Source: Phenylobacterium sp.
Lineage (GTDB): Bacteria > Pseudomonadota > Alphaproteobacteria > Caulobacterales > Caulobacteraceae
Reading direction: 5' to 3'
NCBI RefSeq assembly: GCF_030679875.1
Contig: NZ_JAUXSP010000019.1
Location: 1-64,000 of the forward strand
Length of the DNA stretch: 64,000 nt
The position numbers were made by a program, and so were the translations under genes. The notes under the pieces are model-generated. The model did not search any database. It had not been told where the DNA came from and worked only from the letters and a program-made list of their open reading frames with translations. Numbering within the stretch: the stretch's first letter is position 1; each line of letters begins with the position of its first letter. Shown piece by piece: positions 27,404 to 52,027 of the stretch.

Positions 27404-27826
27404 TCAGGCGCCGAAGGTGGTCGAGCCATCGGCGCCGATCACGCTGCCCGGATTGTGCGCCACCTCCCAGACATGGCCGTCAGGATCGGCGAAATACCCG
27501 GAATAGCCGCCCCAGAACACCGGCTCAGGCGCCTTTAGCGCCTGGCCGCCTGCGGCCAGCGCCTCAGCGAATGTGCCGTCCACCGCCTCGCGGCTGGGCT
27601 CATTGATCGCAATGGTCACGCCGCTGAAGGTTCCATCGATGGGGCGCCTGGCGTCCTCCGCCAGGGCCGCGCGGCCAAACAGTCCCAGGGCCAGACCGCG
27701 GAGCTGATAGAAGCAGACGTCCTCGGTGGCGCTCACCGGGCGCCAGCCCAGGCCTTCCTCGTAGAACTGACGCGCTCGGTTGAGGTCATCGACCCCCAGG
27801 GTGATCAGGCTGAGACGTTGATCCAT
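27404..27826 (-). CDS. VOC family (glyoxalase/bleomycin-resistance fold) protein
   Basis: 140-residue protein with two beta-alpha-beta-beta-beta modules: the first begins LSLITLGVDDLNRARQFYEEGLGW, and the second ends YFADPDGHVWEVAHNP, a typical VOC finish with the metal-ligand Glu. Substrate unknown; the first-module position usually holding His is Thr (ITLGV), so metal binding may be altered. Start ATG 27826 has an excellent ribosome site (GGAGGTT). The track's longer start at 27919 would cross the divergent promoter and the small SOS gene and is rejected. Confidence 0.85.
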   Translation of the reverse strand: MDQRLSLITLGVDDLNRARQFYEEGLGWRPVSATEDVCFYQLRGLALGLFGRAALAEDARRPIDGTFSGVTIAINEPSREAVDGTFAEALAAGGQALKAPEPVFWGGYSGYFADPDGHVWEVAHNPGSVIGADGSTTFGA

Positions 27827-27857: not shown

Positions 27858-27882
27858 TTGACGAGGAGAACAAAACTAGAAT
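27858..27882 (+). promoter_or_regulatory. Promoter of the sidA-like gene (and dnaE)
   Basis: TTGACGA (27858-27864), a 10-nt spacer and ACTAGAAT (27875-27882) are close to the Caulobacter consensus TTGACGS-N10-14-GCTANAWC. The expected start, near 27889, falls inside the LexA box. Confidence 0.7.
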
Positions 27883-27884
27883 AA

Positions 27885-27899
27885 GAACATAAACGGAAC
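27885..27899 (+). promoter_or_regulatory. LexA box (SOS operator)
   Basis: GAACATAAACGGAAC is a perfect GAAC-N7-GAAC, i.e. GTTC-N7-GTTC on the other strand, the established alphaproteobacterial LexA operator. It begins 3 nt after the -10 element, where bound LexA would block RNA polymerase. Confidence 0.85.
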
Positions 27900-27917
27900 A
27901 TCCACAAGGGGTATGTC

Positions 27918-28010
27918 ATGGTCGTTCATCTGGCGCGGGAATCGCTGGCTTTTGTCTCGGTGGCGGGCTTCGTGTGGGTCGTCTGTCAGTTCGCCTATCT
28001 GGTGGGCTAG
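27918..28010 (+). CDS. sidA: 30-residue single-helix membrane peptide, probable SidA (SOS cell-division inhibitor)
   Basis: Too short for the ORF track. The peptide starts MVVHLARESLAFVSVAGF and ends QFAYLVG: a short amphipathic/charged start followed by one hydrophobic helix of about 20 residues. AAGGGG lies 6 nt before the ATG. Upstream is a strong promoter with a perfect LexA box over the start region. In Caulobacter crescentus SidA is a 29-residue inner-membrane peptide, strongly SOS-induced, that halts division by acting on FtsW/FtsN. Size, topology, LexA control and, as I recall, the neighbourhood match. Identity is inferred without alignment. dnaE follows 24 nt downstream and may share the transcript. 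Confidence 0.75.
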   Translation: MVVHLARESLAFVSVAGFVWVVCQFAYLVG

Positions 28011-28034: not shown

Positions 28035-31000
28035 ATGAACCAGCAGCAGAACGAGGGCTTCGTTCACCTGCGGGTGCGTTCGGCCTACTCCCTCCTGGAG
28101 GGAGCCATCAAGGCCGACGCCATTGGCGCCTTGGCGGCCGCCCATGACATGCCCGCCGTCGCCTTGACCGACCGCACCAACCTCTACGGCGCCCTTGAAT
28201 TCTCGGTGGCGACCCAGGGGCAGGGGGTTCAGCCGATCATTGGCTGCGCCCTGGCGGTGAGCGGGATTGGCGAACGGCAGCCCGACAAATGGGCCAGAAC
28301 CCCGACTGTCGTTCTGCTGGCCCAGACGGAAGCTGGCTATCTCAACCTCTCTCGCCTTTCGTCCATGGCCTATATCGACAGCGTCGGGGGGGTCGAGGAG
28401 CCGGCGGTGAGCTGGGCCAAGGTGGTCGAGCACTCAGAGGGTTTGATACTGCTGTCGGGGGGCTGGGATGGCCCGGTCGATCCCCTGATGGCGGCCGGGA
28501 AGGTGGCTGAGGGTCGAGCCGCGCTTGGCGAAATGTTCCGCGTGTTCGGAGACCGCTTCTATGTAGAACTTCAGCGTCATGGCCTGGCGCCGCAAGCCCT
28601 GGCTGAACCGGAGCTGGTGGCCTTCGCCTATGAGATGGACGTCCCGTTGGTGGCCACCAATGACGCCCACTTCACCTTGCCGGACATGCACGCGGCCCAT
28701 GACGCCCTGCTGTGTATCGCTGACGGCGCCTTTGTCGGGCAGGACGAGCGCCGTCGGGTGAGCGGAGAGCACTGGTTCAAGCCGGCCGCCGATATGCGCG
28801 CCCTGTTCGCCGACCTGCCTGAAGCCTGCGACAACACCCTGGAGATCGCGCGCCGGTGCGCCTTCATGGTCCGCAAGCGTGATCCCATCCTGCCGCGCTT
28901 CCCCACCGAAGGCGATCGCACCGAGGCCGATGAACTGGCCCACCAGGCCCGTGAGGGCCTGAAGGGTCGGATCGCCCGCGGGCAGGCGAACCACGCCCCG
29001 GAAGCGGAATATTTCGAGCGCTTGGAGCGGGAGATCGGGGTCATCACCGAGATGGGCTTCCCGGGTTACTTCCTGATCGTTGCGGATTTCATCAAGTGGG
29101 CCAAGGCCCATGACATCCCTGTGGGGCCTGGCCGGGGTTCCGGCGCGGGTTCGCTGGTGGCCTATTCCTTGACCATCACCGACCTCGACCCCCTGCGCTA
29201 TGGCCTGCTGTTTGAGCGGTTCCTGAATCCTGAGCGGGTGTCCATGCCCGACTTCGACATCGACTTCTGCCAGGACCGGCGGGAAGAGGTGATCTCTTAT
29301 GTGCAGCAGCGCTATGGCCGGGACCGGGTGGCCCAGATCATCACCTTCGGCACCCTGCAGGCCCGGGCCGTCCTGCGTGATGTGGGCCGCGTCCTTCAGC
29401 TACCCCTGGGCCAGGTGGACCGACTGGCCAAGATGGTGCCCGCCAACCCGGCCAATCCCGTGACCCTGGCCAAGGCCATCGAGATCGAACCTCGCCTGCG
29501 GGCGGCTCGCGACGAGGACGAGGCGGTCTCCCGCCTGCTGGACGTCGCCCTGAAGCTGGAGGGGCTCTATCGCAACGCCTCCACCCACGCCGCTGGCGTG
29601 GTGATCTCCGATCGGCCCCTGACCGAGTTGACGCCCCTCTATCAGGACCCCCGCTCGGACCTGCCAGCCACCCAGTTCAACATGAAGTGGGTCGAGAGCG
29701 CCGGCCTGGTGAAGTTCGACTTCCTTGGCCTGAAGACCCTGACGGTGATCGACAAGGCGCTGAAGTTCCTGGATCAGCGTGGCGCCCGGGTGGATATGGG
29801 CGTCCTGCCCGTGGACGACGCCAAGACCTATGAGCTCATGTCGGCGGGCCATACGGTGGGGGTCTTCCAGATGGAAGGTCAGGGGATGCGCGACACCCTG
29901 CGCCAGCTTCGACCGAACTCTATCGAGGACGTCACCGCTGTTGGCGCGCTCTACCGGCCAGGCCCGATGGATAACATCCCGGCCTTTGTCGACTGCAAGT
30001 TCGGCCGCCGGACCATCGACTACCTGCACCCCTCCCTGGAGCCCGTGCTCAAGGAGACCTACGGGATCATCGTCTACCAGGAACAGGTGATGCAGATCGC
30101 CCAGATCCTGGCGGGCTATTCCCTGGGCGGCGCCGACCTGTTGCGTCGGGCCATGGGCAAGAAGAAGAAGGACGAGATGGCCGAGCAGAAGGCCATGTTC
30201 GTCGCCGGGGCCTCCACCCGTGGGGTGCCGGAAAGCCAGGCGGCCTCCATCTTCGAGCTTGTCGACAAGTTCGCGGGCTATGGCTTCAACAAGAGCCATG
30301 CGGCGGCCTATGCCGTCGTGTCCTACCAGACGGCCTGGCTTAAGGCGAACGCCCCGGTGGAGTTCTTCGCGGCCTCCATGAGCCTGGACATGGCCAATAC
30401 CGACAAGCTGGCGGTCTTCTACCAGGACGCCAAGCGGTTCGGCGTGGAGATCCGGGCCCCCGACATCAACCGATCCGGCGCTGACTTCGAGGTGGAGGAC
30501 GGCGAAGTGCTCTATGCCCTGGGCGCTGTTCGCAATGTCGGCCTGGCGGCCATGCAACACGTCGCTGACCTGCGCCGGGAGGGCGGGCCCTTCCGCGACA
30601 TCTTTGATTTCGTCGAACGGGTCGACCCGCGGCATGTGAACAAGCGGACCTTCGAGACCTTGGCCAGGGCCGGCGCCTTTGAGTCCATCCACCCCAACCG
30701 GGCTCAGCTGGTCGCCGCCGCCGACGGCCTGATCGGCTACGCTCAGAGCGTAGCGGCTGACCGGGCCTCAGCGCAGGCCAGCCTGTTCGGCGGCGACCAG
30801 GCGGGCGTGGGGCGTCCGCGGATGCCACGGGCCGAGATGTGGACGCCTGTGGAGCGGCTGGATGAGGAATTGGCGGCGGTAGGATTCTATCTCTCCGGCC
30901 ATCCCCTGGAAGACATGATTCCGGCCCTGCGCCGACGCCGGACCGAGCTGCTCACCGAGGTGATCGTCAAGGCCGAGGCTGGCGCGGAGGTGTTCCGCAT

Positions 31001-31478
31001 GGCCGGCGTGGTGCGCCGCAAGCAGGAGCGCGCCTCCCAGTCCAGCGGGGAGAAGTTCGCCTTCGTCACCCTGTCGGACCCGACCGGGGAGTACGAGGTG
31101 CTGTTTCCGCCGGAGTCCCTGCGCCGCTGTCGCGACGTGCTGGAGCCGGGCAAGGCGGTGTCGATCAAGGTCCGCGCCAAGGCCAGGGACGGGGAGGTGC
31201 GCTTTTTCGGCGACGAGGCCGAACCCGTGGAGAAGGCGATTGAGAACGCCGTGGCCGGCCTACGGGTCCACATCTCGCCACGGAGCGCAGAGATCGATGC
31301 GCTGAAGCGACGGCTCGAAGGCGCCGCCAACGCCCGTGGCGGCGAGATCATCCTTACCGCGCCCCTTGGGGGCGGACGCGAGGTGGAGGTGAAGCTACCA
31401 GGCCGGTTCACCCTTGATGGGGCCATGCGCGGCGCGCTGAAGACGGCGCCTGGGGTTCTCTACGTCGAGGAACTCTAG
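28035..31478 (+). CDS. dnaE: DNA polymerase III subunit alpha
   Basis: Replicative C-family polymerase of 1147 residues. Order: PHP domain (about 1-270), palm with catalytic PDFDIDF (Asp406, Asp408), fingers, beta-clamp-binding and OB-fold regions. The PHP entry motif reads HLRVRSAYS where E. coli has HLRVHSDYS, so the first metal ligands (His and Asp) are Arg15 and Ala17. PHP nuclease activity is therefore unlikely, as expected where proofreading is by DnaQ. It is the replicative DnaE by length and linkage, not ImuC/DnaE2. The start ATG has GGGAGGCGGAG upstream and lies 24 nt after the sidA-like gene. Confidence 0.96.
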
Positions 31479-49161: not shown

Positions 49162-51297
49162 ATGCGCCTGTCGCGGCCTCCTAGTGCGCGGGACCTGCTG
49201 ATCGGCCTGGGTCGTCAGATGGTCAACCAGGCGGACCGCTGGAGCCTGTGGACGCCGGTGGCCTTTGGCCTCGGCTGTGCGGGTTATTTCGCCCTGGATC
49301 GGGAGCCGCTAGGGCTGGTGGCCGTCGGATGCGCCTGTCTGGCCGTCGCCCTGCTGGTCTGCGCCCGGCGTCTGCCAATCAGCCGCGAAGCAGCCCTGGC
49401 GCTCATCCTGGCGGCCTTCGCCCTGGGAGGGTTTGCGACCGCCAAGTTCAGAACAGAGGCGGTCGCAGGTCCCATCGCCCCGGCGATTGACGGCCCCAGC
49501 CACGTGGAAGGTTGGGTGGTGGACCTGGCGAGTCCCGGACAGGGCGGCGGCAGCCGCATCATTATCGCGCCCACCCGCATCGACGGCCTCTCGCCGGCCG
49601 AGACCCCCACCCGGGTCCGCCTGACCTTGCGTGACACCATCCCGCCCGTTCCCGGCACGGCGGTTCGCACACTGGCGCTGATCAACCCGCCCCCGCCGCC
49701 GGCCAGCCCGGGAAGCTACGACTTCGCCAGAGACGCCTTCTACGAGAGCATCGGCGGCGTAGGCTTCGCCCTGACGCCTCCCGCGCTTATCGATCTTCCG
49801 CCGCCCCCGGCCCGGCTGGCCCTGGATATGAAGATCAACGCCGCCCGATGGAGCCTGGCGCGTCAGATCGTGAAGAGTATGGGCCCAGAGACCGGGGGCC
49901 TGGCCGCGGCCATGGTCATGGGCAACCAGGCGTTCATTCCCCCCGAGCAGATCGAGCATATGAGGGCTTCGGGCCTCGCCCACCTGATCGCGATTTCGGG
50001 CCTCCACATGGCCATTGTCGGGGGTTTTGTCTTCGCCGCCGTCCGGGCCGGCGTCGCCGCCTGGCCCTGGCTCGCCCTTCGGGTGTCGAGCAAGAAGGTC
50101 GCCGCCCTGATGGGCCTGGGCGCGGTGGGTTGTTACCTCGTCGTCTCTGGAGCCCCCGCGCCGGCCGAGCGCGCGGCGATCACCGCCTCGGTGGCCTTTG
50201 CCGCGGTCATATTTGATCGCAGAGCCATCAGCCTGCACGGCCTGGCCCTGGCCGCCCTCATCGTCTTGCTGATCCACCCCGAGGCGGTGACCGAGCCTGG
50301 CTTTCAGATGTCGTTCTCAGCCACAGCAGCCCTGGTCGCCCTGGCTGAAGTCTGGCCCAGGGCGATCCGGGAAATCAGCGCGCCCTGGCCCATCCGCGCG
50401 GCCCAGACGGCGATGACCTGGCTGGCCGCCAGCCTGGCGGCGAGTTTCGTCGCCGGCATGGCCACGGGCCCCTTCGCCCTGCAGCACTTCAATCGCATGG
50501 CCACCTATGGCTTAGCGGCCAACCTCGCGGCCTCACCAATTTCGTCCTTTCTGATGATGCCCAGCCTGGCCCTCGGCGCGGCCCTCACGCCGCTGGGTCT
50601 GGGAGACGTGCCGCTGATGGTGTCCGGATGGGGGATTGAAGCCATCACCCGCGTGGCCCAGGCGGCGGCCGAGGCCCCGGGGGCGAACCTGCTGGTGGCG
50701 AGCGCCCCGGCCTGGGCGCTTCCCAGCGCCTTCCTGGGCATCCTCTGGCTGTGCCTGTGGCGTGGCCCCGTGCGCTGGATCGGTCTTCCGTTTGCGCTGG
50801 CCGTGAGCCTGGCGCCCCGACCGGAGCCGCCGAACCTATGGATCGCCGCTGACGGGGCGCAGGTGGCCTTGCGAGTTGGGGATGAGGCCATTCTCATGCG
50901 ACCCGATGTGAAGCGGTTCGGCGCCGAACGGTGGGCCCAGCGGCATGGACTGGCGCCCACTTCGGATGGGGCCCGGGAGCCGTACTTCGCCTGTGATCGC
51001 TGGACCTGCCGTCCCGCACCAGGCGCGCCCGTGGCGGTCGCAACCTACTGGAGTCGAAAGATCCCGGAGGCCGATGTGCTGGATGAGCTTTGCAAGTCGG
51101 CCGATCTGGTGGTGATCCGGCCGGCGATGCCCGCCAGCGCCTGTCCCGGAAAGATCGTGTTGAGCGGCGCTGACTTCGCGCGTGGGGGCTCGGTAGAGCT
51201 AGGGCTGGGCCGCGACGGTGTCTGGCGCGCCCAGTGGGCCCAGGATCTGCGCGGCCGCAGACCCTGGAGCTGGGGCGTCAGTGATAGCGGCGAATGA
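49162..51297 (+). CDS. ComEC/Rec2 family membrane protein, without metallo-beta-lactamase domain
   Basis: 711 residues: two N-terminal helices, an OB-like DUF4131 segment (about 100-200), then the polytopic competence domain (about 240-540) with [39 protein letters not shown] in pieces. The family forms the inner-membrane channel for single-stranded DNA uptake. The C-terminal about 150 residues start [17 protein letters not shown], resembling the first strands of the usual nuclease-like beta-lactamase domain, but no HxHxDH motif appears. ATG 49162 chosen; the track start would overlap gltX. Ends overlap the convergent lexA by 20 nt. Confidence 0.88.
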
Positions 51298-51970
51298 GGC
51301 CCACCAGTCGGCCTTGGACCGCCACCTGATCTGGGCCGAAGATGCGGGTTTCATAGGCCGGATTGGCGGCCTCCAGCGCGATTGAGGCGCCCTTGCGCCT
51401 CAGGCGCTTGAGGGTGGCTTCCTCGCCCATGACCAGGGCCACGACGATCTCTCCGGAATTGGCCGAGTCGGCGCGCCGGATCACCACATAATCCCCGTCC
51501 AGAATGCCGGCGTTGATCATCGAATCACCCTGGACCTCCAGGACAAAGTGCTCGCCGGCGCCGAGCATCGACTCCGGCACATGCAGCCGATCGCGCTCCT
51601 GCTGGATGGCTTCGATGGGGGTGCCCGCGGCGATCTTGCCGAGAACCGACAGCTCCCGGGTGTCGTTGGCCGCGGTGGCCGGCGCTGGGTCGCCAGGGCC
51701 GACCAGCTGCGGCTTGAAGGCCTGACGCCCCTTGGGCGGCGCGGACGTGGTGGCGTCCTGAGGAAGCTTCACGACTTCAAGCGCCCGGGCCCGGTGCGGG
51801 AGACGGCGAAGAAAGCCGCGTTCCTCCAGAGCCGTGATCAGCCGGTGGATCCCGGACTTGGACGCCAGGTCCAGCGCCTCCTTCATCTCATCGAAGGACG
51901 GCGAGACGCCGGTCTCTTTGATCCGCTCATGAATGAACATGAGCAATTCGTGCTGCTTACGGGTCAGCAT
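51278..51970 (-). CDS. lexA: LexA repressor
   Basis: SOS master repressor and self-cleaving S24 peptidase, 230 residues. N-terminal winged helix ([17 protein letters not shown]...[17 protein letters not shown]); cleavage site Ala115-Gly116 ([10 protein letters not shown]); catalytic Ser150 ([10 protein letters not shown]) and Lys188 (EEATLKRL). The linker is longer than in E. coli. ATG 51970 fits the family start. Two LexA boxes in the promoter indicate autorepression. Convergent with comEC. Confidence 0.97.
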
Positions 51971-51988
51971 TGGACTTCCCAACCTTGA

Positions 51989-52003
51989 GAACAAAGCGCA
52001 AAC
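51989..52003 (-). promoter_or_regulatory. Second, imperfect LexA box at lexA
   Basis: On the minus strand GTTTGCGCTTTGTTC is GTTT-N7-GTTC, one mismatch from the consensus, in the lexA 5' leader 18 nt upstream of the ATG. Confidence 0.5.
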
Positions 52004-52012
52004 GTTAGCGAT

Positions 52013-52027
52013 GTTCTCTAGGCGTTC
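52013..52027 (-). promoter_or_regulatory. LexA box (SOS operator) of lexA
   Basis: Plus strand GTTCTCTAGGCGTTC is a perfect GTTC-N7-GTTC. It covers the -10 element of the lexA promoter, so binding would block initiation. Confidence 0.88.

Follow-up and report, generated by a model that had tools for sequence, protein, structure and literature searches.

The short frame that directly precedes dnaE in the window, by which we mean the entire 64,000-nucleotide stretch of DNA analysed here, is best explained as sidA, a gene that would encode an SOS-induced, LexA-controlled cell division inhibitor peptide. We put the probability of this reading as a whole at roughly 95%; the identity of the gene, its coding status and the conservation of its operator are read from sequence, and its action is predicted from work on Caulobacter crescentus. 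The frame was assigned to SidA because a curated protein model recognizes the peptide, orthologues occupy the same place across the Caulobacteraceae, substitutions are of the coding type and the LexA operator is conserved. A preliminary description of this DNA had proposed a probable SidA homologue, and that proposal is borne out. The window gene is an ordinary sidA orthologue. Features of the locus are listed in the table.

Table. Features of the sidA-dnaE region and of lexA in the window.
Feature	Position	Strand	Basis and remarks
-35-like element TTGACG	27858..27863	+	From sequence; largely kept in near relatives; not returned by a generic sigma-70 scan
Second LexA box GAACAAAACTAGAAT	27868..27882	+	One mismatch; 17 nt upstream of the proximal box, in register; overlaps the proposed -10
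Proposed -10 TAGAAT	27877..27882	+	Weakly supported; relatives have CAGAAT
Promoter-proximal LexA box GAACATAAACGGAAC	27885..27899	+	Perfect GAACN7GAAC; retained among relatives, 29-65 nt upstream of the ATG
Shine-Dalgarno-like AAGGGG	27906..27911	+	From sequence; 6 nt from ATG 27918; kept in most of the window clade
sidA	27918..28010	+	30 codons and stop; encodes MVVHLARESLAFVSVAGFVWVVCQFAYLVG; predicted SOS-induced division-inhibitor peptide (NF033228, pN/pS, single helix)
dnaE, DNA polymerase III alpha subunit	28035..31478	+	PRK05673, 1453 bits; Pfam DNA_pol3_alpha; starts 24 nt past the sidA stop
Divergent glyoxalase-family gene	27404..27826	-	Pfam PF00903; bounds the 91-bp promoter region
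lexA, repressor expected to act on sidA	51278..51994	-	PF01726 and PF00717
LexA box GAACGCCTAGAGAAC before lexA	52013..52027	-	Perfect motif; 43 nt before the lexA ATG

Identity and coding status of the short frame

When MVVHLARESLAFVSVAGFVWVVCQFAYLVG was compared with NF033228, the NCBI curated equivalog model for the cell division inhibitor SidA, it scored 53 bits (E 2.3e-14) against a cut-off of 35. Searches of Pfam and PHROGs with the same peptide gave zero matches, phage families included. In a comparison of the window with five near relatives, the sidA frame had a pN/pS of 0.34 and the remaining frames gave 1.16 and 2.42, and codon positions 1, 2 and 3 of the sidA frame held 41, 22 and 81 differences, respectively. 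This pattern indicates that purifying selection acts in the sidA frame only. At 30 residues, the peptide has the expected length of about 29 with one transmembrane helix. AlphaFold2, run with no alignment, modelled one helix over residues 2-29 with a mean pLDDT of 94.5, which is the expected outcome for such a peptide and weak evidence alone; hydropathy also fits a single helix. A terminator-like stem inside the gene (27930-27948) was disregarded, as one was found and 0.7 were expected.

Most of what the preliminary description had read from the letters holds. The frame of 30 codons, the AAGGGG placed 6 nt before its ATG and the GAACN7GAAC motif are all where it had put them, the single-helix peptide is backed by the hydropathy and the model, and both conservation of the frame and codon periodicity, which it had named as decisive, were found in relatives.

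The closest DnaE sequences, compared over 400 residues, came from a pair of metagenome bins labelled Caulobacteraceae (96 and 93%), and Phenylobacterium sp. MCMED-G08 followed at 88% in the same comparison. On this basis, the window genome is assigned to a Phenylobacterium-like member of the Caulobacteraceae.

Operator and promoter

GTTCN7GTTC is the published LexA motif of Caulobacter (PMC12700426). By count alone the complementary form, GAACN7GAAC, is not rare, with 2 copies in the window vs 1.18 expected and 83 in the genome. Motif counts, which were not significant in the window, were set aside as evidence for an operator, and position and conservation were used instead. The motif is meaningful because of where it lies: copies precede lexA and also recA of the window genome, and it is retained upstream of sidA in relatives, where 53 of 65 Caulobacteraceae loci have a perfect box. 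Elsewhere in the window genome (L004, L010, L013 and L017), LexA-type boxes lie before frames read by eye as ssb, uvrA, imuA-like and comM-like genes.

Two boxes, each with at most one mismatch, were found in 61 of the 65 Caulobacteraceae loci, with a spacing of 16-18 nt in 60 loci and of 26 nt in the remaining one; tandem boxes occurred in 0 of 585 control windows taken inside dnaE. Several Brevundimonas loci have two perfect boxes, 18 nt apart. The sidA operator is hence best described as a tandem pair of putative LexA boxes, not a single one. Near relatives have CCAGAAT where the window has CTAGAAT, and the conserved element there is GAACN7GAAT (27868-27882). Part of the conservation at this second box may reflect promoter rather than operator.

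The preliminary description had credited the gene with a textbook LexA-controlled promoter. As to LexA control, the perfect proximal box stands, being conserved and matched by the same box before lexA and recA; the second box, with its one mismatch, had been missed. As to the promoter, the elements TTGACGA-N10-ACTAGAAT are present at 27858-27882, but a generic sigma-70 scan of the window returned no promoter there, and the -10 is weak and not conserved in near relatives. We take TTGACGA-N10-ACTAGAAT to agree with the C. crescentus housekeeping promoter consensus (Malakooti and Ely 1995).

sidA in the Caulobacteraceae

NF033228 was searched against 398 Caulobacterales genomes. Matches at E<=0.001 were obtained in 73, all of them Caulobacteraceae, and 43 exceeded the cut-off; the C. 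vibrioides control genome was matched, as it should be. A simple rule located the peptide upstream of dnaE in 65 of 67 fetched loci (the window counted in), and the peptide was recovered in L066, which failed only that rule. All 20 listed Caulobacteraceae genomes lacking an NF033228 match proved on inspection (8 and 12 in two rounds) to have a divergent sidA at dnaE with boxes upstream. Every Caulobacteraceae genome examined carries a predicted sidA. NF033228 is not sensitive enough to find all members of the family, a shortfall that is greatest in the genus taken to be Brevundimonas. This bears on the earlier remark that such genes are lost by annotation pipelines: the NCBI model does pass the window gene, and it fails most Brevundimonas peptides and all those of other families.

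In Caulobacter, Phenylobacterium, Brevundimonas and other genera, sidA lies directly before dnaE, a position shared with Caulobacter sidA. In one Brevundimonas-like genome (L080, 1501-1590), an intact sidA and its LexA box are found away from dnaE, on the downstream side of a relA/spoT-like gene. Caulobacter genome G017 contains a further SidA-like frame, MTRLIRETLAFAAAATFVWAVCVGALVVGDLFRSLPA (L081, ~1500, minus strand), which was not accepted as sidA and may be chance or a paralogue; a LexA box is lacking within 400 nt, and dnaE is not in its vicinity.

Putative SOS peptides in other families of the Caulobacterales

The comparison with short frames upstream of dnaE in other Caulobacterales, which the preliminary description had suggested, was run and recovered peptides across the Caulobacteraceae, in the families that we call f4 and f5, and, within a further family, f3, in genus g10; f3 takes in relatives of Hyphomonadaceae bacterium JAD_PAG50586_4. 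The search rule called for a box with at most one mismatch, followed at no more than 90 nt by the start of a hydrophobic frame of 26-36 residues that ends before dnaE or just inside it. It was satisfied by 31 of 34 loci in f4, 22 of 24 in f5 (vs 0 of 480 resampled sequences) and 3 of 16 in f3, all of the latter in g10, and by none of the 7 loci of f2. Overall, 1 of 3180 Markov-resampled sequences passed. Among 59 loci of other named Alphaproteobacteria, mostly Rhodobacterales, one passed; a box lay upstream of dnaE in two, one candidate being 234 nt away, and these were judged to be chance. The rule misses most Brevundimonas because the hydropathy of their helix falls just below the threshold, and in L197 it selected a different frame from the one that encodes the SidA-like peptide. 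In the failing f4 and f5 loci L218, L224, L230 and L214, the peptide was present on inspection.

A LexA box and an unlabelled single-helix peptide of 25-33 residues lie directly upstream of dnaE in nearly all f4 and f5 genomes (L195-L206, L212-L255, L274-L275 and L311-L316). A profile of the f4 peptide matched 87 genomes, all f4 and with a single copy each, including 39 of the 39 f4 genomes in the dnaE sample. The f5 profile matched 47 genomes, all f5, including 33 of 40 in that sample; the seven missed all belong to genus g16, and G050 and the other six have the peptide at dnaE. Several g16 peptides are just 25 residues long, e.g. MSLLKDLAGFTIVISVIATAITVIG. In the f5 genome G139, peptide and dnaE lie on different contigs. 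The three g10 loci (L263, L264 and L265) have a variant, MAQLQDAAAFAAILAFTLMAWGWGAVIG, 155-217 nt upstream of dnaE and behind a LexA box; other f3 genera are without it.

NF033228 gave no match in the families outside the Caulobacteraceae, and seven f4, f5 and f3 peptides tested had no NCBIfam match even at E 10 and no Pfam match over the cut-off. A class-wide search with the f4 and Caulobacteraceae profiles yielded just weak matches outside the order, several within longer frames, and no convincing homologue.

Homology of these peptides to SidA was assessed with hhalign. The Caulobacteraceae and f4 profiles aligned with 95.3% probability (E 2.4e-8) and the f4 and f5 profiles with 81.3% (E 1.2e-5); the Caulobacteraceae and f5 profiles had no direct match (probability 0.6%). 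As a control, columns were permuted separately within the N-terminal part and within the helix (n=150), which keeps column composition. The real score was reached by 0/150 shuffles for Caulobacteraceae-f4, 0/150 for f4-f5 and 35/150 for Caulobacteraceae-f5. The f4 peptides thus resemble SidA beyond what composition gives, and are filed here as SidA-like rather than SidA because they have no NF033228 match. The f5 peptides lack direct profile similarity to SidA and share its layout of LexA box, hydrophobic peptide of ~31 residues and dnaE.

These peptides could instead have no common origin with SidA, single-helix SOS peptides having emerged, or been recruited, more than once at this site. The failed match between the Caulobacteraceae and f5 profiles is what one would then expect, single helices easily look alike, and several g16 genomes have peptides of just 25 residues. 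We consider a separate origin unlikely, though deserving of some weight, as the two linking profile comparisons beat all 150 composition-keeping shuffles, box, length and neighbouring gene are alike, and Brevundimonas and genus g7 show intermediate forms. Common descent is supported because position, operator and length are shared. Homology to SidA is likely for the f4 peptides; for the f5 peptides, which are tied to SidA through f4 and position only, the balance tips modestly in its favor. Since the layout recurs with diverged peptides in f4, f5 and g10, the arrangement is probably ancestral to them. Peptides of the SidA type, with a presumed checkpoint role outside Caulobacter, are probably ancestral to most of the Caulobacterales, where they have so far gone unannotated.

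Relationship of sidA to dnaE

The gap between sidA and dnaE has no space for a promoter, and judging from this layout sidA and dnaE probably share a transcript, at least in part. In four f4 genomes, the end of the peptide gene and the beginning of dnaE have 4-7 nt in common. A promoter inside sidA or transcription from upstream could also supply dnaE. In a literature search, no paper was found that treats sidA and dnaE together in such a coupling sense, although absence from the searched library is no proof. The pairing is not obligatory, as L080 and G139 demonstrate.

With this proximity in mind, we considered whether the short frame, rather than encoding a division inhibitor, might act as a leader peptide or upstream ORF in the regulation of dnaE translation or transcription. 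Its distance from dnaE, a position retained across the order and the stop/start overlaps in some f4 genomes would suit such a role. Against this, the sequence is conserved as well as the position (FVW core, pN/pS 0.34). Moreover, sidA and its LexA box have moved away from dnaE in L080 and are still intact, the peptide of G139 is on another contig, and the C. crescentus orthologue is a proven inhibitor (PMC4211646). We regard regulation of dnaE by a leader as very improbable. Even less credence, in effect almost none, is given to an overlapping frame of 41 codons that opens at ATG 27913 and ends inside dnaE. It opens 5 nt further upstream and extends over the start of dnaE, but its start codon is missing in the nearest relatives, it is unconstrained (pN/pS 1.16) and its Shine-Dalgarno spacing would be just 1 nt. 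The frame starting at 27918 as sidA remains the reading that we adopt.

Predicted action and comparison with known inhibitors

The SidA protein of C. crescentus has 29 residues, resides in the inner membrane and is the main SOS division inhibitor (PMC4211646). It interacts with FtsW and FtsN, and mutations in ftsW and ftsI suppress its lethality, which was interpreted as SidA keeping FtsW/I/N inactive (PMC4211646). Complex predictions of low confidence place SidA at TM7 of FtsW (PMC13396833). Genes of the FtsW/RodA family are present in the window genome. By analogy with the C. crescentus work (PMC4211646, PMC12700426), we predict that LexA bound to one or both operators in the 91-bp promoter region would keep sidA off, and that upon DNA damage RecA would trigger LexA cleavage and sidA would be transcribed. 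The 30-residue peptide would then insert as one helix into the inner membrane, where it would hold FtsW/FtsI/FtsN, the late divisome complex, in an inactive state until repair is complete. On these grounds, binding by LexA, induction by damage and inhibition of FtsW/FtsN are all ascribed to the window gene.

The window peptide has its length, FVW core, single helix, LexA box and place before dnaE in common with SidA of C. crescentus (CCNA_02004; NF033228), from which it differs by one additional N-terminal residue and by FVWVV in place of FVWMM/FVWMV. DidA of C. crescentus is likewise a small, damage-induced membrane inhibitor of FtsW/I/N (PMC4211646), but it is a distinct gene, induced by DriD and not through LexA, and binds FtsN in two-hybrid assays. 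YneA of Bacillus, SosA of Staphylococcus and ChiZ of Mycobacterium are also SOS- or damage-induced membrane proteins that act on late division steps, with FtsW predicted or shown to be involved (PMC13396833). Unlike SidA, they are longer and some have other domains; SidA is predicted to bind a different face of FtsW TM7 (PMC13396833). SulA of E. coli is an SOS division inhibitor as well, but its target is FtsZ polymerisation (PMC4211646).

Significance

The curated SidA model covers just part of the Caulobacteraceae, and a far wider set of predicted single-helix SOS peptides before dnaE is described here. We tentatively propose, at slightly less than even odds, that most Caulobacterales share an ancestral checkpoint in which LexA-controlled SidA-type peptides form one unit with dnaE, that the 25-33-residue peptides of practically all f4 and f5 genomes and of g10 (f3) block FtsW as SidA does, and that dnaE is expressed from the same LexA-repressed promoter. 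Which residues enable a one-helix peptide to stop FtsW may be learned from these natural variants, of which there are dozens, the shortest with 25 residues. If the proposal is true, polymerase supply and division arrest would be tied, with an essential replicative polymerase sharing a LexA-repressed promoter. This raises the question of how cells can express an essential polymerase gene that lies behind a LexA-repressed division inhibitor and yet not make the inhibitor.
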